Below, in pieces: positions 5,906 through 46,349 of a stretch of 49,116 bases of DNA. The translations under genes were made by a program, and so were the position numbers. The notes beneath the pieces were generated by a model. The model did no database searches and was not told where the DNA came from. It saw only the letters and a list, made by a program, of their open reading frames with translations. The stretch's first letter is position 1; each line of letters starts with the position of its first letter. This DNA is from Candidatus Bathycorpusculum grumuli. GTDB lineage: Archaea > Thermoproteota > Bathyarchaeia > Bathyarchaeales > Bathycorpusculaceae. The stretch covers positions 1 to 49,116 of the forward strand of contig WRNB01000004.1 in assembly GCA_009776805.1 (NCBI GenBank). The letters run 5' to 3'.

Positions 5906-5910
5906 AGGAG
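5905..5910 (+). promoter_or_regulatory. Ribosome site that sets the cobT start
   Basis: AAGGAG overlaps the dph6 stop codon and lies 6 bases before ATG 5917. The alternative ATG at 5902 would place this site inside the gene, so 5917 is preferred. Confidence 0.7.
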
Positions 5911-5916
5911 TCAAAT

Positions 5917-27343: not shown

Positions 27344-28045
27344 ATGAATCCCAAACAAATGCTGGTTTCCGTTGTCATTCCGCTGTACAATGAGGAGCAA
27401 ACTATAGGGAATATTATTGAACGTGTTGATGCTGTTATGAAGCAGACTGGTCTGAAATATGAAATTATAGTGGTTGATGACCGTTCATTTGATAATTCTG
27501 TTATGGTTACTAAAAAGTATGCTGTGCGGTTGTACAGTTTATTGGTACATGGAGGTAAAGGTATGGGTTTACGTGCAGGGTTTGCAAAGGTTAAGGGAGA
27601 TTTGGTAGTAACCATTGACTCTGATGGTTCACATCTTCCTGAAGAGTTACCAAGATTACTTTACCCTGTTTTAAGTAATAAAGCGGATTTAGTTATTGGA
27701 TCTCGTTATCTACAACAGAAAAAAGTTATGGCTAAGAAACTTAATGTGTTTGGGGTTAAAATTTTTAATTTGTTTATTCAAATGTTTACAGGTGTTTATG
27801 TTACTGATTCACAGTCTGGTTATAGGGTAATGAAACGGGAAGTTCTTAGTGTTCAACATTTGAAGTCATGTGGGTATGAGATAGAGACAGAAATGTTGGT
27901 GAAAACTGTTAAGAGTTGTTATCGTGTGTTTGAAGTGCCGATAAGTTTTGAGCAGCGTACTTATGGCGTGTCAGGTGTTGATTATGTGCATGATGTTTTT
28001 AGAATTTTTGTTTCGATAATTTCTGCAAGGTTGAGGGGTGTGTAA
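27344..28045 (+). CDS. Family 2 glycosyltransferase, dolichol-phosphate mannosyltransferase-like
   Basis: A 233-aa GT2 enzyme without obvious C-terminal helices, typical of soluble dolichyl-phosphate sugar synthases (DPM1/Dpm-like): VVIPLYNEEQTIGNI at the start, EIIVVDDRSFDNS, TIDSDGSHLPEELPRLL (DSD metal site), ADLVIGSRY, and the acceptor-side SGYRVMKREV. Presumed to load a nucleotide sugar onto dolichol phosphate at the inner membrane face for N-glycans or surface glycans. It is the first of three same-strand sugar genes; the next starts 3 bases after its stop. Likely leaderless. Confidence 0.82.
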   Translation: MNPKQMLVSVVIPLYNEEQTIGNIIERVDAVMKQTGLKYEIIVVDDRSFDNSVMVTKKYAVRLYSLLVHGGKGMGLRAGFAKVKGDLVVTIDSDGSHLPEELPRLLYPVLSNKADLVIGSRYLQQKKVMAKKLNVFGVKIFNLFIQMFTGVYVTDSQSGYRVMKREVLSVQHLKSCGYEIETEMLVKTVKSCYRVFEVPISFEQRTYGVSGVDYVHDVFRIFVSIISARLRGV

Positions 28046-28047
28046 AG

Positions 28048-29034
28048 TTGTCTGATGTTTTGCCTAAAGTGTCGGTGATTGTATGTTCAATGAATAATGA
28101 GGAGACAATTGAGGAATGTCTGCAGTCGTTGTTGTCACAAAATTATCCGCAGGGACACATAGAAATTATTTTGGTTGATGGCGGATCAAAAGATAGAACA
28201 GTGCAAATTGCCAAAAAATATCCTGTTAAAGTTCATCAGGTTACTTTGAATTGTCCTGCAGCATATAATTATGCACAGAGAATTGCTTGTTACTCAATTT
28301 TAGGTTTTGTAGATTCTGATGCTAAAGTTGAGGCGGATTGGTTAAGAAAACTTGTGACGCGTATAGATGAAGAAAATGTTGGTGGTGTTAGCGGTTCTAT
28401 TGATACTTGGAATGTGAAGAATCCGTGGGCGCGCAGTATTGGGTACGAGTTAAAAGTTAGGTATTGTCGTATTGGCAGATACACTGGGCGTATAGCCACT
28501 ATGAATTTGTTACTTAAAAGAAATGTTATTGAAGATGTGGGTGGATGGGCAGAAGACATGCCAAGTCAGTATGACACAGAATTTGGTTACAGGTTAGCTT
28601 TGAAAGGCTATAAAATTGCTTATGAACCAACTGCCGTGTGTTATCATTATAATCGTTCTACGCTTCAAAAGTTTTATCGGCAACAGTTACAGTACGGTAA
28701 AAATACGTTGCGCCTGTATTTTAAATATGGTGTTTTAGCGCGTGGTGATGAAATTACTGATGTTGGCATGAACATTCAACCAATTTGGTTTTTAGTGTCA
28801 GTGATTAGTTTCTTGTTAGGTGTAATACCGTTTCTGCGTCCTTTGTGGTTTTTAACAGGAATTTTGTCTTTAACATTATTAACTTATTATGTGTATTCAT
28901 CAACAAAAATTGCGGTTAAATTCAAAGACAAATCTGCGATACGACTGGTATTGCTATATTATGTACGAGCTATTGCATGGTTTAATGGAGCCGTAATTAC
29001 AACCATAACATATCTTAGAGGTAAACTCAAATGA
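28048..29034 (+). CDS. Family 2 glycosyltransferase with C-terminal membrane helices
   Basis: A 328-aa GT2: VSVIVCSMNNEETIEECL, IILVDGGSKDRTVQIA, DSDAKVEADW (DSD site) and a QYDTEFGYRLALKGYKI acceptor block, followed by about two to three hydrophobic segments (250-275, 300-325) that would hold it in the membrane. It probably adds a sugar to a lipid-linked glycan. The start is TTG with GAGGGGTG upstream; it overlaps the next gene by ATGA, so all three sugar genes are one operon. Confidence 0.8.
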   Translation: MSDVLPKVSVIVCSMNNEETIEECLQSLLSQNYPQGHIEIILVDGGSKDRTVQIAKKYPVKVHQVTLNCPAAYNYAQRIACYSILGFVDSDAKVEADWLRKLVTRIDEENVGGVSGSIDTWNVKNPWARSIGYELKVRYCRIGRYTGRIATMNLLLKRNVIEDVGGWAEDMPSQYDTEFGYRLALKGYKIAYEPTAVCYHYNRSTLQKFYRQQLQYGKNTLRLYFKYGVLARGDEITDVGMNIQPIWFLVSVISFLLGVIPFLRPLWFLTGILSLTLLTYYVYSSTKIAVKFKDKSAIRLVLLYYVRAIAWFNGAVITTITYLRGKLK

Positions 29035-30230
29035 CTAAACAAAATATCTGTTTTATCTCACCTGAATATTGGCCACTTACTGGTGGAACAGGAGCTTACA
29101 TATATTATCTTTCAAACGCGTTAATGAAAAACGGGTATAACATCAATATTGTTACTGGCGCAAACCAAAATTTTGATGTTCAAGTTAATAATCAACTTAA
29201 AGTGTATTTTCAGAAAATTCCAAAAATACCCATCATAAAATCGTTCATGCTTGCAAAAGCCAGTTATAATAAACTTTACAGTATTCGTAACACAACAAAT
29301 ATTGATATTACTCACCCACAGTTACCATTGACACCTAGTTTTGCTGTTCCACCTCATTTTGGAAAAAATCTTGTCTGTACTGTTCACTCCACTTGGAAAG
29401 GTGAAGCAGAAGCGATAAAAGAAGAGGCCTACAACCATTTAAATGCGAACGAAAAATTTCTTGTAAGTTTTAACAGGTTTTTACGTTTTTTTGAAGTAGG
29501 TATGATTAAACGTGCCAATCGGGTTATTGCCGTAAGTGATTTTACGCGTAAGGAATTAAAAAAATATTATAATATACCTGAAAATCGCATCCGTGTTGTT
29601 CACAATGGCGTTAATACACACAAGTTTCAACCCGCTGAAAACAAGCAAAAAATTAAAACTGAACTTGGATTAAATCCTGAAGACACAATAATACTCTCAG
29701 TGGGCAGATTATACGCCAGAAAAGGTCTTTTTACCTTGATTGAAGCTATGCCAGCTGTGGTTAAACAGTTTAAACACGTTAAATTTGTAATAAGTGGCAA
29801 AGGTCAAAGTGATGAAATGGCAAAACTTGATGCCCATGCTAAACGGTTAGGAGTAAAAGATAATATAATCTTTACAGGTTATTATCCTGATCAGAAGTTG
29901 CCTAAACTTTATCAAGCGGCGGATGTTTTTGCATTTTCAACTTTTTATGAGCATCATCCTTTTGCAGTGCTTGAAGCACTTTCAACTGGGTTGCCAGTAG
30001 TGACAACAACTGTTGGAGGTATTGCTGAAACAATTGAAACGGGTAAAAACGGTTTGTTAGTTAGGCCCTCTGATTCAAAACAGTTTTCAGATGCGCTTTT
30101 GTATTTGCTTGAACATCAAATGGAAGCAAGTGAAATGGGTTTAAATGCTCGTAAAATTATTGTTGAGCAGTATGATTGGAGTGTTTTGGTGAAAAAAACT
30201 ATGCAGATCTATGATGAAGTTTCCACATAG
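29031..30230 (+). CDS. Family 4 glycosyltransferase
   Basis: A 399-aa GT4/GT-B enzyme. The N-domain starts with ICFISPEYWPLTGGTGAYIYY (in two parts ICFISPEYWP, LTGGTGAYIY); the middle holds RVIAVSDFTRKEL and VVHNGVNTHKF; the C-domain has LSVGRLYARKGLFTLIEAM and the donor-binding FSTFYEHHPFAVLEALSTGLP with the GxPVV pattern. Acts in the cytoplasm on a lipid-linked or surface glycan with an unknown nucleotide sugar. Last gene of the three-gene operon; the downstream 3'-motif at 30319 fits its orientation. Confidence 0.85.
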   Translation: MTKQNICFISPEYWPLTGGTGAYIYYLSNALMKNGYNINIVTGANQNFDVQVNNQLKVYFQKIPKIPIIKSFMLAKASYNKLYSIRNTTNIDITHPQLPLTPSFAVPPHFGKNLVCTVHSTWKGEAEAIKEEAYNHLNANEKFLVSFNRFLRFFEVGMIKRANRVIAVSDFTRKELKKYYNIPENRIRVVHNGVNTHKFQPAENKQKIKTELGLNPEDTIILSVGRLYARKGLFTLIEAMPAVVKQFKHVKFVISGKGQSDEMAKLDAHAKRLGVKDNIIFTGYYPDQKLPKLYQAADVFAFSTFYEHHPFAVLEALSTGLPVVTTTVGGIAETIETGKNGLLVRPSDSKQFSDALLYLLEHQMEASEMGLNARKIIVEQYDWSVLVKKTMQIYDEVST

Positions 30231-31809: not shown

Positions 31810-32787
31810 TTAAGTGTCAGGTTTTGGTTCGTCTACAGATTTACCTCTGTAAGTCATAGTGATTTTTTGAAAGAGTTTTACAACATCTAAAGAGCAGAAC
31901 AACATTTTTGTTAAGTATTCGTGTTGGTAAATAATTATTTGTGTTTTAACGGGCAAATCAATACGTGGGGGTTCGAAGTAGTGAGCGACAGCTGAAACTG
32001 GGATACCTTCTTCTTTGATACTGTTTTCTTGCAGTCCAGTTTTTTTGGCAACATAATTTAAGTATGTATCTTTCCAGTCAAGTTTCATAATTTTTGCTGC
32101 CACAATGTCTAATGATAAGGCGTTGGTGCTAGTTAACATGAGATTCATTTGAACTGGTTTACCTTTAGTTGGTCCATTGCCTTCAATACCAACGCGTGCA
32201 TCCATAATTGTTAAAGCAGGTTTGAAAAGTGTATATAAATGGTAGAAGACTTCGGGCAAATATGGGTGGAGGTATATGCGTTTGTTGCTAGGTATACACC
32301 CGAATAGATTTTTTATTGCTCCACTATAGGCCATAAATTCATGTGTTTTCATTAAAGGTAAATCGATTACAGCATCAGCATCCATGATAGTTTTAGGCAA
32401 GAAAAGTCGTTTTACAGATGTAGCCTTGTTGAGTTTTACTTCAACTATCTTGTCCTCTGAGAGGTTAATCACTGTTCCACCTGCTTTTTCAACTGCTTTT
32501 TTCATACCTGTCTTGTTAAATGCGGTCCAACATGGGTAATTAAACCCGTTAGATTCACCTACTATAACATTACTGTTTTGATTGCGGAGTAAACCAATTA
32601 ATTCGCCTGTTAATTCTGGGTCTGTTACCACGCCAGGCAAATATTCTGGGTGACTTAGATTTGGTTTAATGAAAATTTGTTTTTTACTGTGTAAATCAGC
32701 GTTAGCAACAGCTTCTTTTAAAATATCACTTATAGATGTATCTTGTGTACGGTAAATTTTTACTGAGTGTAAAGTTTTTTGTGACAT
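31810..32787 (-). CDS. DUF362 protein
   Basis: A 325-aa protein of the DUF362 family: KKQIFIKPNLSHPEYLPGVV, TDPELTGELIGLL, NVIVGESNGFNY, ADAVIDLPLMKTHEF, SGAIKNLFGCIPSNK, and a C-terminal LDIVAAKIMKLDWKDTYL. No extra ferredoxin domain is present. Some DUF362 relatives are associated with iron-sulfur or corrinoid-protein activation, but the activity is generally unknown. ATG 32787 overlaps the upstream stop as TAATG and has GGGAG about 9 bases ahead, so it is coupled to the radical SAM gene; this pairing is the best functional clue. Confidence 0.82.
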   Translation of the reverse strand: MSQKTLHSVKIYRTQDTSISDILKEAVANADLHSKKQIFIKPNLSHPEYLPGVVTDPELTGELIGLLRNQNSNVIVGESNGFNYPCWTAFNKTGMKKAVEKAGGTVINLSEDKIVEVKLNKATSVKRLFLPKTIMDADAVIDLPLMKTHEFMAYSGAIKNLFGCIPSNKRIYLHPYLPEVFYHLYTLFKPALTIMDARVGIEGNGPTKGKPVQMNLMLTSTNALSLDIVAAKIMKLDWKDTYLNYVAKKTGLQENSIKEEGIPVSAVAHYFEPPRIDLPVKTQIIIYQHEYLTKMLFCSLDVVKLFQKITMTYRGKSVDEPKPDT

Positions 32788-34202
32788 TATGTTTTTGCTC
32801 CCATAAGGCATCCAGGATCACCGTTAAGGGTATCACCGCTGTGGTATGCAGCTGATCTTGCTCTGCAGCCTCCGCAGATGTATTTATATGTGCATTTGCT
32901 ACATGAGCCTTTCAGATTAGATCTGTTGCGAAAAGCATTAAATAGTGGCGCGTTAAGCCAAATGTTTTTGAATGTTTGGGTTTTTAGGTTACCAACGTTT
33001 GTGGGTAAAAACACGCATGGACGTACATCACCTTGTGGGGAAATAGAACAGTAGAGTCTACCTGCACCACATCCACCAATAAATTCGCCTAGAGGTACAG
33101 CTTTTTTTGTCACTGTTACAGTTTGCATGTGTGCTAAAGCCATGGTGACTTCGCCTGTGCCTGATTTGCCTTGATATTGTGCTGCGACTCGCGCTAGTTG
33201 TGGTGCTGTGGCTAAAATAGTAGTTTTACATCCTGCTGACATACGATTTAACAAGTATTTCATTACTTGCTCTCGTTCTTGAGGTGAGAGGTCTTGGTCT
33301 GCGTGGTCTTTACCGCGTCCAGCGGGAATAAAATTGAAGTAGGTAAATCGTTCTACTTCTAATTGTTCAGCTAAATCAATAATACTAGGTAATTCTGCCA
33401 TGTTGTTTTTTCCTACGGTAGTAGCTATACAAGTACAAATATCTGCCTCTACACAATTTTTAAGACCAACAAGTGCCTTTTCGAAAGCTCCATCAATACC
33501 ACGAAAGGCGTCATGTGTTTTAGCAGTTGCACCATCTATGCTTATGTCCACATAGTTAACTTTTGCTTCTTTGAGTTTTTGCACATTTTCTTTAGTGAGT
33601 AAAGTGCCGTTTGAGGCAAGAGAAACGTATAATCCGCGGTCAGCTGCGTGACGAGCTACTTGGAAGAAGTCTTTACGAGTTAAAGGTTCTCCGCCACTAA
33701 AAGCTAAAGCGGTAATATGTGCATCAGCAAGTTGATCTACAATAGCTAATGCTTGTTCGGTAGTTAATTCGTTCTCTTCAACTTCACCACTGTTTGAGTA
33801 GCAGTGTTTACAACGTAGATTGCATTTATGTGTAAAGTCCCAAACTACCAAAAAAGGTGCACAAAGAGTTATAGGTTTTTTAATTCCAAAGTGTTCAAAA
33901 GATTCTACAAGATTAAGTACAGCGTTTCTGGCATATTTGTCGGTTAATAATTGTTCTACTTTTGCTCGTTTAAAACCAAGTGCTTTGCGTAAAAATTCAA
34001 TCCAAAACGCGATAATATGGTTGTAAGAAGAACTGCAATTCTCACAATGTGCACTGTTTTTTTTGCCATAGTTATCTAATGCTGCCTCGAGAACTGTACG
34101 ACCACACATGTTACATTTACGGAGAGATAACTGGAGCATTTTTTTGGTCATTGGCATACTAACTATTGCATTCCAGAAAGTGTCATAACTAAGTACACTC
34201 AT
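32787..34202 (-). CDS. Radical SAM/SPASM protein with an N-terminal zinc-finger-like part
   Basis: A 471-aa enzyme. C30, C33, C53 and C56 in the first 60 residues could bind zinc or a cluster. The SAM cluster cysteines are C127, C131 and C134 (CNLRCKHC), followed by AFSGGEPLTRKDF and later YVDISIDGA. The SPASM end contains GGCGAGRLYCSISPQGDVRP, then CVFLPTNVGNL and CSKCTYKYICGGCRARS with many cysteines for auxiliary clusters. Its ending matches that of the gene at 16893, so both belong to the same broad archaeal group (AhbC/D, tungsten-enzyme maturases, peptide maturases). The partner is the downstream DUF362 gene. The substrate is unknown. GGGAG lies about 11 bases before ATG 34202. Confidence 0.85.
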   Translation of the reverse strand: MSVLSYDTFWNAIVSMPMTKKMLQLSLRKCNMCGRTVLEAALDNYGKKNSAHCENCSSSYNHIIAFWIEFLRKALGFKRAKVEQLLTDKYARNAVLNLVESFEHFGIKKPITLCAPFLVVWDFTHKCNLRCKHCYSNSGEVEENELTTEQALAIVDQLADAHITALAFSGGEPLTRKDFFQVARHAADRGLYVSLASNGTLLTKENVQKLKEAKVNYVDISIDGATAKTHDAFRGIDGAFEKALVGLKNCVEADICTCIATTVGKNNMAELPSIIDLAEQLEVERFTYFNFIPAGRGKDHADQDLSPQEREQVMKYLLNRMSAGCKTTILATAPQLARVAAQYQGKSGTGEVTMALAHMQTVTVTKKAVPLGEFIGGCGAGRLYCSISPQGDVRPCVFLPTNVGNLKTQTFKNIWLNAPLFNAFRNRSNLKGSCSKCTYKYICGGCRARSAAYHSGDTLNGDPGCLMGAKT

Positions 34203-34325: not shown

Positions 34326-35390
34326 TTACCCTATGAGATGTTTTAGACCAGGTATTTTTTTAAGAGGTATAATAATGAGTAAACAAGCACCTATTGTTAA
34401 AACGGTCATTAATGGTACACCTACAATGGAGTTGACAATATTGCCGTGTAATGAAAAACCAAAGAATCCTGTTTGGAACAGATAAATAAATATCATATGC
34501 ATTAGATATAGGGGTAACGTGTTTTCACTTATTACATGCATTAGTCGTTGTTTCCAAGATGGTTTGTTTATTTTAGAATCGTTTGGTGGTTTACCGTAAC
34601 TGTTTAGCAGTATAAAGAAAGGTATTGATGCTAAAATTGTGGTGGGACTATAGTAGTTGTGGAAAAAGTATGTGTCACTGTGATACATTATCATGAGACA
34701 AGTTGTAATAGCTGTCAAAGCAAGGCCTAAAGCGGTAAGTGTTACAAGAGTGAGACGTTTAACTTTTACATTAACAAGATATGCACCTATTACAAAATAA
34801 CCAAGAAAAACGGGAATAAGGAAAAAGTTTGGGTCTAACTGATATTGCCCTATACTTGCCCAGGTTATTATAGGTCCTAACGTGGTACCTATAGCCCATA
34901 AACATATAAAATATTTGAAGTGTTTAGCAGTAAAATTAGCAACAATAACACGTAACAGAGGCGTTAGAAGATAAAGACCTGCCAGCATGTAGAGATACCA
35001 AAGTATAAAGTATGGACCGTTTAAAATTCCATTTATAATAAAATCTTGGGTTAGTGGGTGATTTTCAACATAAAAAACCCAAAAAAAGAAAATAATACTC
35101 CAAAATAAGAATGGTAAACCAATGCGGCTAAAGCGTTTTTTGAAAAAGACACCTATTTCTTCATCTTTTTTAGATGGAGCAAGTAACAGTGCCCCCGACA
35201 ACATAAGAAACAAAGGCACACCCATCCTGCCAAAGCCTTGATAAATATCAAGTGTCCACCAACGTAAGAGGTCAAATCCCATGTGTTGACTGGTTAAATC
35301 ATTGGAAGCATGAAGCAGAATAACACCTACTATTGCTATAACACGGATTAAATCTACAGGTATAGCAAGTGTGTCTTTCTGCTGATCCAT
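34326..35390 (-). CDS. Acyltransferase 3 family membrane protein, copy 1
   Basis: A 354-aa integral membrane O-acyltransferase (OafA/NodX type) with about ten hydrophobic helices. The motif IAIVGVILLHASND (14-27) holds the conserved membrane histidine, and RMGVPLFLMLSGALLL and KRFSRIGLPFLFWSIIFF are the family's cytoplasmic R-rich turn. Expected to acetylate or acylate a surface sugar or lipid. The second copy at 35528-36598 is closely similar along its whole length, including the IIPLKKIPGLKHLIG end, so this is a tandem duplication. Confidence 0.85.
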   Translation of the reverse strand: MDQQKDTLAIPVDLIRVIAIVGVILLHASNDLTSQHMGFDLLRWWTLDIYQGFGRMGVPLFLMLSGALLLAPSKKDEEIGVFFKKRFSRIGLPFLFWSIIFFFWVFYVENHPLTQDFIINGILNGPYFILWYLYMLAGLYLLTPLLRVIVANFTAKHFKYFICLWAIGTTLGPIITWASIGQYQLDPNFFLIPVFLGYFVIGAYLVNVKVKRLTLVTLTALGLALTAITTCLMIMYHSDTYFFHNYYSPTTILASIPFFILLNSYGKPPNDSKINKPSWKQRLMHVISENTLPLYLMHMIFIYLFQTGFFGFSLHGNIVNSIVGVPLMTVLTIGACLLIIIPLKKIPGLKHLIG

Positions 35391-35527
35391 TAGTTAAGTC
35401 GCTCCAATACATATTAAGTGGTTTGTGGAAATATATTTTACGGAGTTTACAATATTTCTTTTTTTAGTTTTAACAGAGCAGTTGTTTATTTGTAAGATAT
35501 ATTGTTAGCAGGTATTTTATGGTTGAC

Positions 35528-36598
35528 TTAACCTATGAAATGTTTTAGTCCAGGTATTTTTTTAAGAGGTATAATAATAAACAGACTAAGTAACAATGTT
35601 AAAATTGCCGTAAGGGGTACATCAATAATAGCGTCTATTATGTAACCGTTTAATACAAAAACAAAGACAGTTTTGAGTATGTAGAAAGCAATCATATGAC
35701 ATAGATAAATTGCTAAACTGTTTTTGCTGATTACATGCATTATGCGTTGTTTCCATGAAAAAATTTCTGGTTGAGATACATTTTGAGGTTTAGTGTAACT
35801 GTTTAATAGTAAAAATAAAGATACAGTCGTTAAAATCATAGTAGGACTGTTGTTTCCTTGAAAGAAAAAGGCGGTATCACCACCATTTCCAGCTGTAAAA
35901 TAAGTTATAATTATTGTTAGAGTAAAACCTAAAACAGTAGATGCTGTAAGAATCCAACGTTTAATTCGTATTTTAATAAGGTAAGCACCTGCTATAAAGT
36001 AACCAACACATAGAGGAATAAGAAGAACAATACCGTTGAGGTAGGTTTGCCAACCGCTTATAAATTCGGCCATTGGTATTAACGCGGCACCTATAATCCA
36101 TAGTATTATAAAGTATTTGAAGTGTTTAGCAGTAAAATTAGCAACCATAACACGTAACAAAGGCGTTAAAAGATAAAGACCGATTAACATGTAAATATAC
36201 CAGAACGTAACATAGGGGCCTTTCAAAATTCCGTTAATGATGAAATCTTGGGTAAATGGTGTGTTTGTAATATAAAAAGCCCAGATAAAATAGATAATAC
36301 TCCAAAACAGGAAAGGTAAGCCAATGCGGCTAAAGCGTTTTTTAAAAAAATAGTCTATTTGTTCATCTTTTTTAGATGGAGCAAGTAACAGTGCCCCCGA
36401 CAACATAAGAAACAAAGGCACACCCATCCTGCCGAAACTTTGGTAAATGTCAACAACTACCCACCAGTGTAACATACCCATGTTAATTATTGGTTGTGTA
36501 GCTAAATTACTTATTGCATGAAGCAGAAGTACTGCAGATATTGCCACTACACGAATTAAATCTACAGGTATGGCAGATGTGCCGTTCTGCTTATCCAT
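35528..36598 (-). CDS. Acyltransferase 3 family membrane protein, copy 2
   Basis: A 356-aa paralogue of the previous gene, same family and topology: VAISAVLLLHAISN (18-31), RMGVPLFLMLSGALLL, KRFSRIGLPFLFWSII. The blocks RMGVPLFLMLSGALLLAPSK and RVxVANFTAKHFKYF are near identical in the two copies, whereas the last third has diverged. The start is ATG 36598; TTG 36601 is an alternative. Which sugar or lipid it acylates is unknown; the neighbouring sugar and lipid genes suggest envelope decoration. Confidence 0.85.
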   Translation of the reverse strand: MDKQNGTSAIPVDLIRVVAISAVLLLHAISNLATQPIINMGMLHWWVVVDIYQSFGRMGVPLFLMLSGALLLAPSKKDEQIDYFFKKRFSRIGLPFLFWSIIYFIWAFYITNTPFTQDFIINGILKGPYVTFWYIYMLIGLYLLTPLLRVMVANFTAKHFKYFIILWIIGAALIPMAEFISGWQTYLNGIVLLIPLCVGYFIAGAYLIKIRIKRWILTASTVLGFTLTIIITYFTAGNGGDTAFFFQGNNSPTMILTTVSLFLLLNSYTKPQNVSQPEIFSWKQRIMHVISKNSLAIYLCHMIAFYILKTVFVFVLNGYIIDAIIDVPLTAILTLLLSLFIIIPLKKIPGLKHFIG

Positions 36599-36681
36599 CA
36601 AATATAGTCACTAATAAATAACATGTGTTTGTGAAATTATATCTTACGGAAATTTATCAGTTAGTGTTATGTTTTAGTGTA

Positions 36682-37296
36682 TTATTTGCGGTTGGCTAAT
36701 AGAGTTTGGGCTATTTGAAGTTCTTTAGGAGTGTTAATGTTTATTGCCAGTTCAGGGTAGTCTAGTAAGAAGATATCTTGATCTAGCCATTTGTCTCCGT
36801 ATTGTTTTTTGCCATCGATTACATTTATTCCTGTTGGCACAACATCTTTATCATCCATTTTAAAAGAGTATTCAACACTCATGCCCATTTTGATTTTTGT
36901 TTCGATGGGTATTGCAACTGTTAGTGCGGGTTTGCCGCAGTTTTCATATCGTTCGACTATTTTGTCAAGAATTTTTCCGGTGATTAGTGGCAAGTCTGCT
37001 GCGATTGCGATAAATTTACCTAGTTTGAGGGTTTTTGTAGCGTATCCCATATCTGAGACGTAGTTGTTTCCAGGGGTTATTACGATTTTTGTTTGGAATT
37101 TTTCAATGTATTTTGCGGTATTTGGAGTTCGTTGGGTTACTGCAACGTATATATTATCAATTTTTTCAGCGTTTTTTATAGCATTAAATACGTAATCTAT
37201 GACTGGTTTGTTGCAGATTTTGATAAGCGGTTTTTCTTCTGGAGAGTTCATGCGTGTACCTTTGCCACCGGCCATAATTAGTGCAGAAACAGTCAT
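36682..37296 (-). CDS. CobY-like nucleotidyltransferase, copy 2
   Basis: A 204-aa nucleotidyltransferase with MAGGKGTR (8-15), EEKP (20-23), VTQRTPNTAKYIEKF, AADLPLITGKI (metal D in the AADLP turn), GINVIDG and ININTPKELQIAQ. All are CobY family features, and to my eye it is at least as CobY-like as copy 1. It overlaps CobS copy 2 by ATGA. By family it would make adenosylcobinamide-GDP, but the odd CobS partner and the lipid neighbours leave open a different acceptor. Confidence 0.8.
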   Translation of the reverse strand: MTVSALIMAGGKGTRMNSPEEKPLIKICNKPVIDYVFNAIKNAEKIDNIYVAVTQRTPNTAKYIEKFQTKIVITPGNNYVSDMGYATKTLKLGKFIAIAADLPLITGKILDKIVERYENCGKPALTVAIPIETKIKMGMSVEYSFKMDDKDVVPTGINVIDGKKQYGDKWLDQDIFLLDYPELAININTPKELQIAQTLLANRK

Positions 37297-38138
37297 ATCA
37301 TCATTAGCACTCCTGCAATTAATACAAGAGTTAGTGCTCTTGCGGTTTCATTAGTTGCTCCGATGATGTCACCTGAAACACCTCCAAACACTTTTTCAGA
37401 TACTTTTTTCATTATGTATGCAAGTGGAATACTAGCAAACATTACACCTAAACCAAATATGCCGTAAATTGTGTTCATTGTTAAACTAAATAGTACAAAT
37501 ATTATTATTGACGATATTACGTATGCGAGAATGTTTAGTTTCTTTTTGGCTTTTTTTAGGAAAATAGAACCTAAACCTTTGTGGGTAGGTTTTCCAATCC
37601 ATACAAGTGTTACCATTGCAAGTTTAGCTGCAACTTCAGCTGAAATTATTGTTATAAAGATTATTAGAGGATTTGAGAATATAGGAACTAGTAAGAATAA
37701 ACCTATAAATGCTGTGAATTCGACGATTATAGCGAAGATTGCTCCTGAATAGTTTACTGTCCAGGCATGTGCAGCCATTTTTCTGTCGTGTTTATTTTTG
37801 TAACCTAATGCGTTACCAAGATCAATTAAACCATCGAAATGTTGAAGTCCAGTTATTACTAAGAGAAATGCAATTGTCATTGCTACTGACGTAAATCGTA
37901 CTAAAAAAGTAACGGGTAAAGTTACAAAACTGTTAATTCCGTTTATCAGAAATTGTAGGATATAATTACTGCCAATATAATACGCACCTGCTAAGGTACC
38001 TATGAAAGCTCCAATTAGTGGAAAGAGGTACATGTTTTCTGCTGAGGTGAAAACGAAGTCTTCTTTTCCACCTACTGGGATTACAGTAAGGAATGCAAGC
38101 AAATCCCTAAAGGTTTTTATAGTTTTTGCAGGCGACAT
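37293..38138 (-). CDS. CobS-like membrane transferase, copy 2, with altered motif
   Basis: A 281-aa CobS homologue, 27 residues longer than copy 1, with the same start (TFRDLLAFLTVIPVGGK), LFPLIGAFIGTLAG and the ending VFGGVSGDIIGATNETARA. The DGLxDxxD motif reads HFDGLIDLGNA: D102 and D106 remain, but the third acidic residue (D90 in copy 1) is N109. The MHD aspartate (D107 in copy 1) aligns with A125. So two acidic positions that are conserved in copy 1 are lost. It may have changed substrate or lost activity. It starts leaderless from the promoter shared with the epimerase operon, and is followed by CobY copy 2 (ATGA overlap). Confidence 0.8.
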   Translation of the reverse strand: MSPAKTIKTFRDLLAFLTVIPVGGKEDFVFTSAENMYLFPLIGAFIGTLAGAYYIGSNYILQFLINGINSFVTLPVTFLVRFTSVAMTIAFLLVITGLQHFDGLIDLGNALGYKNKHDRKMAAHAWTVNYSGAIFAIIVEFTAFIGLFLLVPIFSNPLIIFITIISAEVAAKLAMVTLVWIGKPTHKGLGSIFLKKAKKKLNILAYVISSIIIFVLFSLTMNTIYGIFGLGVMFASIPLAYIMKKVSEKVFGGVSGDIIGATNETARALTLVLIAGVLMMI

Positions 38139-38159
38139 ATAACTAATAGTGTGTGCATG

Positions 38160-38169
38160 TACATATAGG
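38160..38169. promoter_or_regulatory. Shared promoter of CobS2-CobY2 and the lipid operon
   Basis: Only 47 bases separate the two divergent start codons. ACATATAGG works as a TATA box in both directions: 17-25 bases from ATG 38186 and 22-30 bases from ATG 38138. Neither gene has a ribosome site, as expected of leaderless messages. Confidence 0.5.
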
Positions 38170-38185
38170 CTTTGTCGTGATTTGA

Positions 38186-39121
38186 ATGGCAGAATTTAAT
38201 GATAAAAAAGTGATGGTTACAGGTGGTGCAGGCTTTATTGGTTTTCACCTATCTAAAGCTCTGTCCAGTTTGACGGATAATTTGGTAATATATGATAATT
38301 TATCAAGTGGAAAAATAGAAAATGTAAATGATGTTCCTGAAGCAAAATTTGTTAAAGGTGATATTTTGGATACAGAAACATTATTTTCACAAGATAAAAT
38401 GGATATAATTTACCATTTAGCCGCTCAAGTTGTGGTTCCTTATTCAATGGAAAATCCAATGGAGGATTTTAACACAAATGCTAAAGGCACATTATGTGTT
38501 CTCGAAAAAGCACGTAAAGACGACGCAAAACTGGTTTTTGCTTCAAGTGCAGCAATATATGGCAACCCATCAGTATTTCCTACACCTGAAAATTATGGTT
38601 TTCACCCATTTTCCTGTTATGGTTTGTCTAAAGTTGTAGGTGAAGAATACTGTCAAATGTACCGAGAACAATATGGCCTTGATATTATAATAACAAGATT
38701 TGCTAATGTTTACGGTTCCAGATGCCATGGTGTGATTCACGATTTCTTGGACAAACTTGCTAAAAATCCATACAAGTTAGAAATTATAGGTACAGGTCAA
38801 CAGTGTAGAGATTTTGTGCATGTTTCTGATGTGGTTGACGCATTAATCAAAGTTGGCAGTATGGATTCTGTTGTTGGTGAAGTGTATAATCTTGGTTTTG
38901 GAAAAACATTTTCTGTTCTGGAACTTGCTAAAATGATGTTATCAATTCTTGATTTACAAAATAAAACTGTTGTGACTACAACTAATGTTTCTTGGCATGG
39001 CGATGTGACCAAAATATGGTTTGACATAACTAAAGCAAAGAAAGAGTTAAATTGGAATCCAAAAGTATCTCTTGAAGATAACATAAAAGAAATCATCACT
39101 GAGAGGAAAATAACTAAATGA
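38186..39121 (+). CDS. NAD-dependent sugar epimerase/dehydratase
   Basis: A 311-aa extended short-chain dehydrogenase of the GalE/WcaG type: NAD motif GGAGFIG (13-19), the S/Y/K set S120-S121, Y145 and K149 (CYGLSK), and HLAAQVVVPYSMENP. Presumed to epimerise or dehydrate a nucleotide sugar, cytoplasmic. It heads an operon with the UbiA and Tes-like genes through an ATGA overlap at 39118-39121. A link to lipid head groups (a nucleotide sugar for an archaeol sugar head) is inference from that operon. Confidence 0.85.
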   Translation: MAEFNDKKVMVTGGAGFIGFHLSKALSSLTDNLVIYDNLSSGKIENVNDVPEAKFVKGDILDTETLFSQDKMDIIYHLAAQVVVPYSMENPMEDFNTNAKGTLCVLEKARKDDAKLVFASSAAIYGNPSVFPTPENYGFHPFSCYGLSKVVGEEYCQMYREQYGLDIIITRFANVYGSRCHGVIHDFLDKLAKNPYKLEIIGTGQQCRDFVHVSDVVDALIKVGSMDSVVGEVYNLGFGKTFSVLELAKMMLSILDLQNKTVVTTTNVSWHGDVTKIWFDITKAKKELNWNPKVSLEDNIKEIITERKITK

Positions 39122-40029
39122 GTTTATCACCAGCTAAAGGATTGTTTGCGCTTTTAAGAACACCGTATTGGCTTATGACAGGAGGACTATCATTACTTAC
39201 GGCGTTTGCTATCACAAAAAGCGATTTTGTAAAAATTGATCCTTTACAACTGGTGTTAATTTTCTTTTCGATGGCTTTTATTGCTAGTGCAGGTTTTGCT
39301 ATAAACGATTATTTTGATCGTGCAAGTGACGCTGTCATAAAACCTAAACGTCCAATTCCTGCTGGTGCCTTAACAATTAAACAGGTAATAACCATTTCAA
39401 GTATACTCTTCGCGTTGGGTCTGGTTATGGCTTTCTTTATCAATGAATTAAGTTTTGCAATTATTGCTGTTGACTCGATTTTGTTGCTTTTTTACTCATA
39501 TCTTGTAAAGCGCAAATCAGGGTTTGCTGCAAATCTTCTTATGGGCATCTTAACTGGAACAGCTTTTTTATATGGTGAAGCAGCAGTTCAAAACACAATT
39601 ACGTTTGCTTCATTAAGTCTTTACCCAATAGCATTTGGTACTATAGGCGGAAACATTCTAAGAGATATTCTAAGTTTAGATGGCGACTCAAAAGTAGGTT
39701 ACCCAACATTGCCTCAAAAAATTGGCAGCATCGGTGCTGCTAAAGTTGGCGCAATATTTTTTATGTTAACTGGACTACTTGCACCTTTACCTTATTTTGT
39801 TGAAAAAATTACAAGCTATATAGGCGTTACAGGACACACAGGTTTTACAGTATATTACTTGCCCTTAATTTTAATATGGAGTATACTTTTAATTTACTCG
39901 GCCGTACGCCTTGTAACATCTACTTCCACAATAGAAAACATACGTAAATATGAACGCATGGTAACTATGTCCATGATATTACTACCATTAGCCTTGATAG
40001 TTGAAGCAATAGTTGGAATACTACTATGA
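39118..40029 (+). CDS. UbiA prenyltransferase, probable DGGGP synthase
   Basis: A 303-aa membrane prenyltransferase with about eight hydrophobic helices. The first Asp-rich motif is NDYFDRASD (63-71), followed by KPKRPIPAGAL, and the second is the DILSLDGDSKVGYPTLPQKIG block. These are the signatures of archaeal digeranylgeranylglyceryl phosphate synthase, which adds the second geranylgeranyl chain to make the archaeal lipid core; menaquinone or heme prenyltransferases are the alternative. Overlaps of ATGA with both neighbours place it inside the epimerase-UbiA-Tes operon. Confidence 0.78.
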   Translation: MSLSPAKGLFALLRTPYWLMTGGLSLLTAFAITKSDFVKIDPLQLVLIFFSMAFIASAGFAINDYFDRASDAVIKPKRPIPAGALTIKQVITISSILFALGLVMAFFINELSFAIIAVDSILLLFYSYLVKRKSGFAANLLMGILTGTAFLYGEAAVQNTITFASLSLYPIAFGTIGGNILRDILSLDGDSKVGYPTLPQKIGSIGAAKVGAIFFMLTGLLAPLPYFVEKITSYIGVTGHTGFTVYYLPLILIWSILLIYSAVRLVTSTSTIENIRKYERMVTMSMILLPLALIVEAIVGILL

Positions 40030-41519
40030 GTGAAACAAAAAGCATCTGTCCAAAATGTCAAAAAAAAATTGATGCCAAATTAAATGAATTTAACGGTCAA
40101 ATTAGAATCAACAAACAATGTCCCGAACATGGCGAGTTCAAAGCTACACATTGGCAAAGCATACCAATTTTTGAACACATGCAAAAATATGACCAATTTC
40201 AATACCTTGGTGATCTTAACGCTCCAAAAAACCCCAAAGATTGCCCATATGTCTGTGAAACATGTAGCAATCACGCTTCTGGAACAGTTATAGGTGTAAT
40301 TGACGTAACCAAACGTTGCAATTTTAGATGTGCAGTTTGTTTCTCAACTTTCCCCAACCAAGATCAAGACTATGAACCAACCAAAGAAAATTTAATAGAC
40401 ATGTTAGAGTTTGCCGCAAAAGCAAACCCAAAACCCCCTGCAATTCTCTTCTCAGGCGGCGAACCACTTGAACGAGAAGACATGACTGAAATCATCGCTG
40501 CCGCTCACCGATTAAAATTCATGACCATACTGGCAACCAACGGCACACATCTTGTTGACACACCAAGCTTAGCTAAAAAGCTTAAAGAAAATGGGTTAAA
40601 CATTGTTTATTTATCCTTTGACAGTTTCAATGAAGAGTTTAACAAAAAAGTTCGCGGTCTGCCTCTTGTAGATATTAAACTAAAAGCTATTGAAGTTTGT
40701 CGTAAATACGATATAGAAGTCATCTTAGTCAATACCTTAATGAAAAGTCTAAACGATAATGAAGTAGGTGACATGATACGATTTGCCGCCAAAAATACCG
40801 ACATAATAAGAGGGTTAATTTTTCAACCAATAGCTTTTACGGGTAGAGCAACTGAAAACCCATTCCGCGAAAATTTCCGTGAATGGAATTTTGCTGAAGA
40901 TGTAGAAAAACAAACCAATGGTGAAATAAAAACCACTGACCTGTTTCCAATGTCAGTTATGACATCACCGATTAAAATAATGCGAAAATTCATGCAAAAA
41001 CCTTGGCCTCTATTTAGCTGTAGTCCTCAATGTGGTATTGTAAACTGGGTTTATGTTTCTAAAAACGGTAAAATGTTTCCAATCAACCAGTTTGTAAATT
41101 TTGATAAATTCTTCAATTATATACGTAAAACTGCTGAAAATGCAGAGTCAAAAGGTAAACTGTCTCTGCTCTCTTCACTTTTCATGGGAGCCATGCTATC
41201 AATGCGTATGTTAACAGTAACAAAAGAAGTAGGTACATTCACATTGATAAGCAGTATTTTACGTATGCACGTCTCTCCGTCTTATGCTTCACTGGGAAAA
41301 ATACGTCGTAACATTTTCCTATTAGGTTGTATGGCTTTTATGGATTCTTACAATTTTGACGTTAATCGTGTTCGTCGATGTGTAGTTCACTATATCACGC
41401 CTGACAAAAAAATCATACCATTTTGTGCATACAATAATGTTCATAGGGTGCAAATTGAAAACGAGTATATTGAACGTCAACAGAAAAATAAACAGTCACA
41501 AACGAAAAATACCGTTTAA
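40026..41519 (+). CDS. Tes-like radical SAM protein, candidate tetraether lipid synthase
   Basis: A 497-aa radical SAM enzyme with C98, C102 and C105 in CNFRCAVC, a zinc/cluster-like N-terminus (C8, C11, C32, C73, C77, C80: CPKC..., CPEHGEFK, CPYVCETCSNH), ILFSGGEPLEREDM as SAM motif, and a C-terminal block (GCMAFMDSYNFDVNRVRRC, IIPFCAYNNVHR) I associate with the Tes (MJ0619-type) family that couples phytanyl chains to glycerol dialkyl glycerol tetraethers. Family assignment is from memory of motif order. The operon position, ATGA after UbiA, supports a lipid role. The GMMHFMD/FCxYN end is shared with other members whose activity is unknown. Confidence 0.7.
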   Translation: MSETKSICPKCQKKIDAKLNEFNGQIRINKQCPEHGEFKATHWQSIPIFEHMQKYDQFQYLGDLNAPKNPKDCPYVCETCSNHASGTVIGVIDVTKRCNFRCAVCFSTFPNQDQDYEPTKENLIDMLEFAAKANPKPPAILFSGGEPLEREDMTEIIAAAHRLKFMTILATNGTHLVDTPSLAKKLKENGLNIVYLSFDSFNEEFNKKVRGLPLVDIKLKAIEVCRKYDIEVILVNTLMKSLNDNEVGDMIRFAAKNTDIIRGLIFQPIAFTGRATENPFRENFREWNFAEDVEKQTNGEIKTTDLFPMSVMTSPIKIMRKFMQKPWPLFSCSPQCGIVNWVYVSKNGKMFPINQFVNFDKFFNYIRKTAENAESKGKLSLLSSLFMGAMLSMRMLTVTKEVGTFTLISSILRMHVSPSYASLGKIRRNIFLLGCMAFMDSYNFDVNRVRRCVVHYITPDKKIIPFCAYNNVHRVQIENEYIERQQKNKQSQTKNTV

Positions 41520-41536: not shown

Positions 41537-42028
41537 CTACGCAAATGCTGTAACGTGTAAGATACAGTAATTGTTAGTAAAAACATAGTCAGCATCATTT
41601 TTTGTATAAAGTTCAAACACAATACTATAAGTGCCTTCTTCGTTGATAGTTATAGGTATTTGATTGCTCCATTGTTCTTTGGCATCTAACGTAAACTCGT
41701 ATACACCATACGGTGAGGCATCAACAGGAAAATTTATTGTATGGTGAACAATTTTCACTTGAATTTGATAATACTGCTGTGTAAACATATTATTTGTGAC
41801 AACAATCGGCGTGTTAAAAGTACTATTTTGATTAATAACAACACTATGTGAATAACTGACTGCTTGATTTTGATTGTCAAGTAAATACATTTCATGATAA
41901 CCCGTAGGCTTAAGAGCATACATAATAAGGTAACCTCCAATTATGCAACAAATTATGAAAAGGGCAATAATTACTGCTGTTCGACTCTTGTTAAGATTTA
42001 TTGTGACTGTTTGGTTGTTATCTTCCAT
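41537..42028 (-). CDS. Small membrane-anchored protein, DUF1616-like
   Basis: A 163-aa protein with one N-terminal membrane helix (17-39: AVIIALFIICCIIGGYLIMY) and a beta-sandwich-like outside domain, YLLDNQNQAVSYSHSVVINQ and GTYSIVFELYTKND, reminiscent of the DUF1616 domain that follows sugar genes in archaea. It lies 6 bases after the stop of the minus-strand glycosyltransferase at 42035, so they share a transcript. It may help place surface glycans; this is inference. Confidence 0.55.
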   Translation of the reverse strand: MEDNNQTVTINLNKSRTAVIIALFIICCIIGGYLIMYALKPTGYHEMYLLDNQNQAVSYSHSVVINQNSTFNTPIVVTNNMFTQQYYQIQVKIVHHTINFPVDASPYGVYEFTLDAKEQWSNQIPITINEEGTYSIVFELYTKNDADYVFTNNYCILHVTAFA

Positions 42029-42034
42029 GCTTTT

Positions 42035-42721
42035 TCACTTGTTCACTAATCCTTTTACCATAGTGGTGAATATTTCTATAGTTGACTTGAATTTTTGCAG
42101 CTTAGGTTTACCATATTTACGAGTTTTATAGGTACTTTTAATTTCAACCATTTTATAATCTTTCTTTTTAAATTTTATAAGCATCTCTGTGGCAAACGCC
42201 ATATCACCTTCTACAAGGCGCACATTATTTATAGCTTCATGCGATATAGCTCTAAATCCTGATTGTGTATCGCTTAAATATTGACTATAAAGAAAATCAA
42301 AACAAAAAGTAATAATTTTGTTACCAACAAAATTGAAAAAACCCATTGCTTTATTTGGATCATACATACGTGAAGCAAGAACCAAATCAGCCTTTTCTTG
42401 AATCATCTTATCCAACATACGTCCAATATGCTTCACCTCATAAGTACCATCACCATCAACCATAATGATAATACTACCTTTAGCATGTTCCATACCTGTT
42501 TTTAAAGCACGCCCATAACCACGACGCGGTTCAATTATCAATCTACAAAACTTTGTACCCTTTACAATCTCCTGTGTACCATCAGTAGAATTCCCATCAA
42601 CAACAATAATCTCATTAGGATAAGTTAAACCTTCATGAATCGTTGTTACAGCTTCTAGTATGTTACCTGCCTCATTAAGTGTTGGAATCACTATTGATAC
42701 TAATTCTACCTTTACAGTCAT
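42035..42721 (-). CDS. Family 2 glycosyltransferase, dolichol-phosphate type
   Basis: A 228-aa GT2 (start ATG 42721): VSIVIPTLNEAGNILEAV, IIVVDGNSTDGTQEIV, IIMVDGDGTYEV (DGD site), ADLVLASRMYDP and SGFRAISHEAI, as in DPM1-like dolichyl-phosphate sugar synthases. An earlier ATG at 42727 abuts the ribosome site (AGGAAG), so the second ATG, 6 bases from it, is chosen. It lies behind the GT4 at 42761-43912. Resembles the plus-strand GT2 at 27344 in architecture. Confidence 0.82.
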   Translation of the reverse strand: MTVKVELVSIVIPTLNEAGNILEAVTTIHEGLTYPNEIIVVDGNSTDGTQEIVKGTKFCRLIIEPRRGYGRALKTGMEHAKGSIIIMVDGDGTYEVKHIGRMLDKMIQEKADLVLASRMYDPNKAMGFFNFVGNKIITFCFDFLYSQYLSDTQSGFRAISHEAINNVRLVEGDMAFATEMLIKFKKKDYKMVEIKSTYKTRKYGKPKLQKFKSTIEIFTTMVKGLVNK

Positions 42722-42760
42722 TCCCATCTTCCTAGTTAACCAATTATTGTTTATATTAAC

Positions 42761-43912
42761 TTAAATAAGCTCTTCGTATATTTCAACAAGTTGAGCCACA
42801 TTTTTATCCCAGCTGTATTGCGCCTCAACAATAGCCCGCAACTCACTCACATCATTAGTAATACCTGCAAATTCAACAATCGCATCAGCTAACGCTTCAG
42901 GATTATCTGCCGGAACCAACTTCCCAAAACCCTCCACCAATATCTCATTTATTCCGCCAACATTTGTAGCTATAACAGGCAAACCACACGCCATAGCTTC
43001 TAAAGCCACTAAGGGTAAACCTTCACCAGATTTTGAAGGCAAAACAAACATATCAGCAGTATTGTAGTACAAACATAAATCTTGATCTGCAACAAACCCT
43101 GTTAATTTAATATTTTTTTCGAGCCCTAACTGTTCTATTTGCGCCTGAATACTAACCAAGTCAGGTCCTTTCCCTGCAATTATAAAAACTATATTTTGTT
43201 TCTTTTTTATAACAAGATTCGCAGCATCAATTAAAGTATCAACGCCATTTTTATAAACTATTCGTCTAACAGTTAAAACAACTTTCGCATCTTTTGAAAT
43301 ACCTAATTTTTTACGCATATTCTCTCTAACTTTAGGCATCGGTTTAAATCGATTCAAGTCCACACCATTATGAAGAACTTTAATTTTACTAGGGTTTGCA
43401 CCTAAATTTAACACATACTCTTTTGTTGCATTACTCACAGTTATTATTCTGTCAGCTTGTTTAAGAGTTTCTTTACCAACGAACAAGTCATTGATTGTTT
43501 CCACATAATTAAAGATGTTTTTATAGTCTATGAAAGTATTGTGTTGTGTTAAAACAAATGGTTTTCCGTAGTGTTTCGCAAGTTTTCCTGCTATAAGCGA
43601 TGTTAAGTAGGGATGCCCGTGTGCGTGAACAATTTTACTGTTTTTTATGTTTTTAGTAAACGTTAAAAAGTCAGTTATTGTTGGAATTGTATACGGTATA
43701 CCTAAACGAAAAGCCATGTTAATAGATTCATAACATTCAACGTTTATCCCATTATAAACATATTTTTTAGGGGTTTGAATTCGGTTTGTCACAATTTTCA
43801 GTTCAAAATTTTTTTGTAAAAGTCTCTTACTTTGTTCATAAGTTACAATTTGTATTCCACCAACTGATGGCAAAAACACACTAGTAACAATACACAATCG
43901 TGTTTGACCCAT
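42761..43912 (-). CDS. Family 4 glycosyltransferase
   Basis: A 383-aa GT4 from ATG 43912 (TTG 43939 would add 9 residues without family match). LCIVTSVFLPSVGGIQ and KIVHAHGHPYL start the N-domain; ADRIITVSNATKEYVL and VLHNGVDLNRF follow; the C-domain has VVLTVRRIVYKNGVDTLIDA and the donor site MFVLPSKSGEGLPLVALEAM with the E-x7-E pattern. Transfers an unknown sugar to a lipid carrier. Followed at 39 bases by a GT2, so the two act in one pathway. Confidence 0.85.
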   Translation of the reverse strand: MGQTRLCIVTSVFLPSVGGIQIVTYEQSKRLLQKNFELKIVTNRIQTPKKYVYNGINVECYESINMAFRLGIPYTIPTITDFLTFTKNIKNSKIVHAHGHPYLTSLIAGKLAKHYGKPFVLTQHNTFIDYKNIFNYVETINDLFVGKETLKQADRIITVSNATKEYVLNLGANPSKIKVLHNGVDLNRFKPMPKVRENMRKKLGISKDAKVVLTVRRIVYKNGVDTLIDAANLVIKKKQNIVFIIAGKGPDLVSIQAQIEQLGLEKNIKLTGFVADQDLCLYYNTADMFVLPSKSGEGLPLVALEAMACGLPVIATNVGGINEILVEGFGKLVPADNPEALADAIVEFAGITNDVSELRAIVEAQYSWDKNVAQLVEIYEELI

Positions 43913-43939
43913 GTAAGCCCAACTGCATAGACTTCTCAA

Positions 43940-45878: not shown

Positions 45879-46349
45879 TTAGCTTTTTACTGATTTAGTG
45901 TACATATTTGATGATGCACCCGCGATTAGTGCACCTATAGGGTCGTTTGTTAGTGGTCCAAGTTTTTTTAAGATACCAGGCTTTGCTTGGTCGAAACGAA
46001 CATACTCGAACATGCCTTTTGCTCCAGCGATATATGTTGCAATAGCTATACCAAGCAATTCGTCTGCAACTAGTCCAGGTCTACCCATAAAATATTCCAT
46101 ACTTAAACCAGGGATTAAACCTTTTTCTGCATCTTCTTGTGCATGGAAAGCTGCAATGATTAAAGTTGCTACGTTTGGGTCAGATAACGCTATGGTGATT
46201 TCTTCTTCTAAAATTTTTGCGGCTTGTTGAATTGTTTCAATTCCAGGATGTGGTACATACATTTCGAGCGCAGCATCAATAAGATCTTGCATAGTAATAT
46301 TTTGTTGCTCGAGCCATTTTAGCATAGGTATTTGCTTATTACTTGTCAT
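45879..46349 (-). CDS. cobZ: Alpha-ribazole phosphatase CobZ
   Basis: A 156-aa archaeal phosphatase of the PgpA-related CobZ family that removes the phosphate from alpha-ribazole-5'-phosphate or cobalamin phosphate, the final step around CobS. Visible are ITMQDLIDAALEMYVPHPG, AFHAQEDAEKGLIPGLSMEY, the signature LVADELLGIAIATYIAGAKG and FEYVRFDQAKPGILKKLGPL with the acidic D/E cluster. It lies 30 kb from cobY-cobS copy 1 and 8 kb from copy 2. AGTAGGT about 10 bases before ATG 46349 could serve as ribosome site. A phosphatidylglycerophosphatase role is the alternative but the archaeal branch favours CobZ. Confidence 0.8.
   Translation of the reverse strand: MTSNKQIPMLKWLEQQNITMQDLIDAALEMYVPHPGIETIQQAAKILEEEITIALSDPNVATLIIAAFHAQEDAEKGLIPGLSMEYFMGRPGLVADELLGIAIATYIAGAKGMFEYVRFDQAKPGILKKLGPLTNDPIGALIAGASSNMYTKSVKS

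Follow-up and report, generated by a model that had tools for sequence, protein, structure and literature searches.

The window analyzed here is a 49,116-nt stretch of a contig of Candidatus Bathycorpusculum grumuli, a metagenome-assembled genome (MAG) of the class Bathyarchaeia; Bathycorpusculum archaea have been described from termite guts (PMC10684969, PMC7886697). It possesses two CobS-CobY gene pairs. The first, at 7014–8389 on the forward strand, lies between the genes for CobT and CbiB2 and comprises CobS1, a canonical cobamide synthase (7014–7778), and CobY1 (7769–8389). The second, on the reverse strand, comprises CobS2 (37293–38138), a divergent cobamide synthase paralogue of 281 amino acid residues, and CobY2 (36682–37296), a 204-residue member of the adenosylcobinamide phosphate (AdoCbi-P) guanylyltransferase family, with an overlap of 4 bases between the genes. 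Running opposite to cobS2 on the forward strand are genes for an NAD-dependent, GalE-like sugar-nucleotide epimerase/dehydratase (38186–39121), UbiA2, a second prenyltransferase resembling digeranylgeranylglyceryl phosphate (DGGGP) synthase (39118–40029), and Tes2, a second tetraether-synthase-like radical S-adenosylmethionine (SAM) enzyme (40026–41519), each overlapping the next by 4 bases. Families were assigned by Pfam and NCBIfam profile searches with family cut-offs, supplemented for the epimerase by a neighborhood comparison. On re-checking, the coordinates and frames of the two pairs, and the 47 bases (38139–38185) between the divergent starts, agreed exactly with the initial annotation.

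This divergent intergenic region contains a conserved ATATAGRCTTTGTC element. The TATA-like AATATAG/CATATAG, proposed earlier to suit both directions, is approximately 26 nt away from the start of cobS2 and 20 nt away from that of the epimerase gene; ATATAG(G/A)CTTTGTC is kept between the starts in most family relatives that retain the divergent layout. The spacing on the CobS2 side would fit a leaderless archaeal transcript, and the element appears compatible with a shared control region, making co-expression plausible.

CobS2 matches the Pfam CobS domain (PF02654) over its full length with 98.7 bits against a cut-off of 23.2, and narrowly misses the equivalog cut-off of TIGR00317 (108.4 versus 110 bits); CobS1, to which it is approximately 35% identical, scores 138 and 167 bits, respectively. 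AlphaFold2 models of CobS1 and CobS2 had mean predicted local distance difference test scores of 95 and 91.8. A CobS2-type protein was found in 66 of 257 Bathyarchaeia genomes, nearly all of which are MAGs, and in none outside this class in a sample of 398 Thermoproteota genomes, where the scores dropped from 332 bits for CobS2 to 170 bits for CobS1 types with nothing in between. In a tree built from 116 CobS proteins, a single branch (Shimodaira–Hasegawa-like approximate likelihood ratio test, SH-aLRT, 100) set all 49 CobS2 sequences apart from the rest. The stem of this clade, which is separate from CobS1, is approximately 1 change per site long. The trees in this study are quick searches without bootstraps, and branch support is SH-aLRT where a figure is given. 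Two genomes, G126 and G072, have three or four CobS-type genes, namely, two or more for CobS1 and one for CobS2.

To locate the differences between the two types, 63 CobS2 and 81 CobS1-type proteins (outgroup included) were aligned and mapped onto E. coli CobS, and residues are given below in E. coli/Salmonella numbering. Two acidic residues of CobS1, D90 and D107, had been reported as replaced by N109 and A125 in CobS2; both losses are real and align to D89 and D106, respectively. These positions are Asp in all 81 CobS1-type proteins and in E. coli CobS, whereas in the 63 CobS2 proteins the former is always Asn and the latter is A, V, R, E, K, or another residue but never Asp. The near-invariant Met at position 104 of CobS1 is Ala in every CobS2 (A123 in the window), and the near-invariant Gly at position 110 is T, S, or N. 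CobS2 consequently lacks the third Asp of 80-HxDxxxDxxD-89, a motif by which CobS is recognized, while its HxDxxxD core is kept (H80, D82, and D86, invariant in CobS2; H100, D102, and D106 in the window), as is the 225-GxxGDxxG-232 motif, with G228 and D229 (G256 and D257 in the window) invariant along with G260. By domain assignment and alignment, CobS2 is a CobS-family protein that fails one defining active-site feature.

According to a study on Salmonella CobS (PMC8092220), the D82A, D86A, D89A, and D229A changes each abolish cobamide synthesis in vivo, M104A impairs function, and loop 2 is linked to the binding of adenosylcobinamide-GDP (AdoCbi-GDP). From these residues, CobS2 has likely lost the canonical CobS reaction; because no replacement of D89 by Asn appeared among the changes in the passages of that study consulted here, the loss is probable rather than proven. 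Since one essential Asp is gone, as is another, invariant Asp, CobS2 could also be a catalytically dead CobS-fold scaffold that holds CobY, CobS1, or a corrinoid at the membrane near lipid enzymes. We consider this very unlikely, since the other catalytic residues are invariant in 63 of 63 sequences, pseudoenzymes usually lose more of the core, and Q99, G112, and W126 are new invariants specific to CobS2. The ratio of nonsynonymous to synonymous substitution rates against two close relatives was approximately 0.1 (an approximate value, with synonymous divergence near 1). The overall pattern looks like changed specificity and not decay.

Both lipid enzymes next to CobS2 are second copies. Tes2 passes the NF045702 cut-off (464.5 versus 450 bits) and UbiA2 matches PF01040 with 110 bits; like canonical Tes and DGGGP synthase, they keep the radical SAM and auxiliary metal-ligand Cys residues and the first Asp motif, NDxxDxxxD, respectively, but they are divergent paralogues with near-invariant changes of their own and occur almost only with CobS2. 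A canonical Tes (659 bits versus 464 for Tes2) and another UbiA are encoded elsewhere in the genome, and most relatives likewise carry other copies of both. UbiA2 and Tes2 were always jointly present, in 66 of the 257 genomes, and 64 of these have CobS2; uncorrected for phylogeny, which the Fisher value for this co-occurrence ignores, the table reads 64 genomes with both CobS2 and the lipid pair, 2 with CobS2 only, 2 with the lipid pair only, and 189 with neither. The lipid pair occurs without CobS2 in G046 (84% complete) and G102 (60%); CobS2 occurs without the pair in G054, considered below, and in G075 (78%), in which the contig stops inside the epimerase gene. Counted by genus, 18 contain CobS2, and 17 of these also contain UbiA2/Tes2. 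Incomplete genomes aside, members of three genera (g1, g10, and g18) have either all of CobS2, UbiA2, and Tes2 or none of them, and those with none lack CobS1 as well.

Next, gene order was compared among relatives. Most loci in family f1 have the same three blocks as the window, namely, CobS2-CobY, epimerase-UbiA2-Tes2, and a small, uncharacterized membrane-anchored protein (41537–42028, reverse strand in the window) followed by GT2 (42035–42727, reverse) and GT4 (42761–43939, reverse) glycosyltransferases; a basal group of this family has no adjacent epimerase. Most of these genes are also linked, in a rearranged order, in family f4, where CobS2-CobY adjoins CobD2 and a GT2-GT2-GT4 block. 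The counterparts in the window are CobD2, a second threonine-phosphate decarboxylase-like aminotransferase (25595–26716, reverse) that adjoins CobS2-CobY in several relatives, two GT2 glycosyltransferases (27344–28045, AglJ-like, and 28048–29034), and one GT4 glycosyltransferase (29031–30230), the last three on the forward strand. Genes for a DUF362 protein (31810–32811) and an AhbD/NirJ-like radical SAM/SPASM protein (32787–34202), both on the reverse strand, are likewise conserved in the cluster. The most compact version, in the basal genome G116 (L060), combines late cobamide genes, CobS2/UbiA2/Tes2, and five glycosyltransferases within approximately 17 kb, in the order CobT-CobS1-DUF71-GT4-GT2-small protein-Tes2-UbiA2-CobS2-CobY-radical SAM/SPASM-DUF362-GT4-GT2-GT2-conserved unknown-CobD2-CbiB2. 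The linkage of CobS2 to UbiA/Tes thus holds across genera and in two families, and together with the co-occurrence table this synteny places the arrangement far beyond chance. From these comparisons, CobS2 is a conserved, functionally diverged CobS paralogue in a cluster that is specific to Bathyarchaeia and combines late cobamide genes with a second pathway for tetraether lipids.

The cobamide side of the cluster also contains second copies. CbiB2 (8633–9634, forward strand), a second AdoCbi-P synthase, and CobD2 duplicate a canonical CobD1-CbiB1 pair on another contig of the genome, and in G118 the CbiB1 gene sits with hem genes. The distribution of CbiB2 largely tracks that of CobS2, with some gaps. 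CobT, of the archaeal type (5902–7017, forward), lies directly upstream of CobS1. The window also encodes a CobZ-like α-ribazole phosphatase of the PgpA family (45879–46349, reverse), which scores 132.9 bits on TIGR03161, below the cut-off of 152.5. The DUF71 protein beside CobT and CobS1 (5237–5905) scores 148.7 bits against a Dph6 cut-off of 197.3 and may belong to the DUF71-B12 subgroup, predicted to act in B12 salvage (PMC3541065). CbiB2 is adjoined by a B12-binding radical SAM protein resembling HpnJ/BchE (9740–11125), a possible B12-dependent enzyme of lipid or tetrapyrrole metabolism, and a similar gene stands beside CbiB2 in G094. A relative of the HutW/HemN-like radical SAM protein at 19389–20699 lies directly upstream of CobS2 in several f4 genomes (L066, L073, and L074). 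Two acyltransferase-3 genes between CobY2 and the radical SAM gene (34326–36601) had no match in the relatives' neighborhoods compared and are therefore probably a local insertion.

The partner protein, CobY2, has M. jannaschii CobY as its best match in the PDB (2MZB/3RSB, E 1.4e-23) and conserves the GTP-binding residues R13, K19, G8, and D101. It scores below the equivalog cut-offs of NF045495 (129.6 versus 250) and TIGR00454 (133.1 versus 174.7), the latter being passed in none of the 59 genomes searched. Both CobY types in these genomes are homologous to the M. jannaschii GTP:AdoCbi-P guanylyltransferase over the full length and keep its GTP-binding residues; unlike that system, there are two CobY lineages per genome, and they have exchanged CobS partners in the clade of the window. 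In most genomes CobY-B lies 3′ of CobS1 and CobY-A lies 3′ of CobS2, but the order is reversed in this clade, and the CobY tree places its CobY1 within CobY-A (the ancestral CobS2 partner) and its CobY2 within CobY-B (the ancestral CobS1 partner) with starred support. The two proteins have therefore undergone a reciprocal swap of CobS partners, and each type has since retained both its characteristic signature and the residues that bind GTP. The swap is seen at 7769–8389 and 36682–37296 in the window and at L079–L085, L003–L008, and L021 in relatives; the cause may be an inversion that broke at the cobS/cobY junctions. Specialization of CobY2 for CobS2 was considered and is contradicted by this swap.

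Eleven sampled genomes (G116, G117, G118, G123, G134, and six of family f4, several of them single contigs) have both CobS1 and CobS2 but only one CobY, located beside CobS2, and lack CobU. A single AdoCbi-GDP pool should therefore feed both CobS enzymes in these genomes. In view of these single-CobY genomes and the partner swap, CobY most likely makes ordinary AdoCbi-GDP for both enzymes, and the novelty would sit in the acceptor of CobS2. The initial annotation had proposed that the CobS2-CobY2 pair is dedicated to a substrate other than a corrinoid. It had also named three findings that would refute it, namely, tight grouping of CobS2 with active CobS in a tree, variability of the two acidic positions in active enzymes, and no conserved lipid-gene linkage in relatives; all three were examined, and none was obtained. 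The acidic losses and the lipid linkage stand, but the dedicated non-corrinoid pair is not supported, since the CobY types have swapped partners and the single CobY of basal genomes must serve CobS1 as well. A 607-residue frame in G137 (L143:8435–10258, G137:C8) was rejected as a second CobY because it proved to be a serine recombinase joined to most of a CobY; apparently, a mobile element struck an additional copy of cobY. In G071, G137, G136, and G060, CobS1 and a neighboring CobY were present without a CbiB match.

An idea close to the original one is that CobS2 makes a corrinoid-free phospholipid head group in the manner of CDP-alcohol phosphotransferases; CobY, perhaps bifunctional, would activate with GDP either a small amino-alcohol phosphate supplied by CobD2 or a lipid phosphate that UbiA2 has made, and CobS2 would form the phosphodiester. 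CobD2 is conserved in the block, and archaeal members of the UbiA family make lipid phosphates. Loop 2 has changed where Salmonella mutants suggest contacts with AdoCbi-GDP (PMC8092220). On the other hand, the single-CobY genomes and the partner swap favor the ordinary AdoCbi-P reaction, and CbiB2, an amide-forming corrinoid enzyme, largely tracks CobS2. The CDP-alcohol phosphotransferases (PF01066, e.g., archaetidylinositol phosphate synthase) do resemble CobS2 in principle, since they couple a nucleotide-activated donor to an alcohol to give a phosphodiester in the membrane; they differ in using CDP rather than GDP and have no demonstrated sequence relation to CobS2, which gave no PF01066 match in the Pfam search. 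They occur in 57 of 59 genomes regardless of whether CobS2 is there, so there is no gap in the head-group pathway to be filled, and a simple replacement of these enzymes by CobS2 was rejected. We regard the head-group function as unlikely.

Alternatively, CobS2 could be a further cobamide synthase that serves another lower ligand or operates under other conditions. The lipid genes would then lie nearby either by history or because their pathway consumes cobamide, perhaps by way of a B12-dependent radical SAM enzyme like that at 9740–11125. Its homology to CobS, its retained core residues, the other cobamide genes in the same block of G116, and the B12-binding radical SAM gene adjoining CbiB2 in the window are consistent with this, and CobS2 is essentially confined to genomes with CobS1 (every CobS2 genome at least 90% complete has CobS1 except G159, a 620-contig assembly). 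CobS2 has, however, lost an Asp that Salmonella requires to make cobamide (PMC8092220), together with M104, D106, and G110. Moreover, the neighborhood comparison showed no second CobT in linkage with CobS2, and this reading does not explain why second copies of UbiA and Tes are distributed as CobS2 is. A second synthase therefore seems rather unlikely, although not strongly so.

In CobS chemistry, a GDP-activated corrinoid reacts with an alcohol to give a phosphodiester and GMP. Our preferred proposal, which we hold tentatively and with somewhat less than even confidence, is that CobS2 performs this chemistry on an acceptor from the lipid pathway instead of α-ribazole phosphate. CobD, CbiB, and CobY, as their family assignments predict, would make AdoCbi-P and then AdoCbi-GDP. 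CobS1, whose gene lies 3′ of the gene for CobT, the presumed source of its acceptor, would couple AdoCbi-GDP to α-ribazole phosphate to give a cobamide, the established function of CobS. CobS2, with the same catalytic core and an altered loop 2, would combine a GDP-activated donor of this kind with another alcohol, most probably one carried by a prenyl or glycosylated tetraether lipid that UbiA2, Tes2, and the linked glycosyltransferases produce. GMP would be released, and the product would be a phosphodiester-linked, lipid-anchored corrinoid. The donor, acceptor, and product named here are those that gene context and residues suggest, and there is firmer support for CobS2 as a non-canonical CobS that works with a lipid module than for the donor assigned to it. 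That Bathyarchaeia covalently anchor a corrinoid to a (glyco)tetraether lipid in this way, producing a membrane-fixed relative of B12 from AdoCbi-GDP and a lipid alcohol, is a doubtful though specific form of the proposal.

Several points weigh against a lipid acceptor. The co-occurrence of CobS2 and the lipid genes is partly phylogenetic, and physical adjacency could explain their joint loss. One genome, G054 (69% complete), has CobS2 without UbiA2, Tes2, or CbiB. Because the altered residues lie in loop 2, which the Salmonella study links to AdoCbi-GDP binding (PMC8092220), the donor of CobS2 and not its acceptor could have changed. A limited search of open-access literature found no lipid-linked corrinoid. 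In the PDB, a sequence search with CobS2 gave no useful match, no solved CobS structure was found, and fold searches with the CobS1 and CobS2 models gave no match at E ≤ 0.001.

Compared with the Salmonella and E. coli CobS (adenosylcobinamide-GDP ribazoletransferase), CobS2 shares the family, the membrane location, the HxDxxxD core, the GxxGDxxG loop 6, and the pairing with CobY; it differs in the D89N and M104A replacements, the loss of D106 and G110, neighbors that are UbiA2 and Tes2 rather than CobT, and its separate clade. No report of this paralogue in Bathyarchaeia was found in the same limited literature search. CobS is generally treated as an enzyme with a single function, and the Salmonella study names as a standing question why every producer anchors the final stages of cobamide synthesis to the membrane (PMC8092220). 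If true, the coupling of a conserved CobS paralogue with a second group of tetraether-lipid enzymes would mean that nucleotide-loop chemistry has been reused for a lipid product, and that B12 producers can be miscounted when proteins are labeled "CobS" automatically. The cobS2 gene would then mark an unknown archaeal lipid in a class that is abundant and uncultured, and our findings suggest that B12 chemistry has been redirected in these archaea toward building that lipid.

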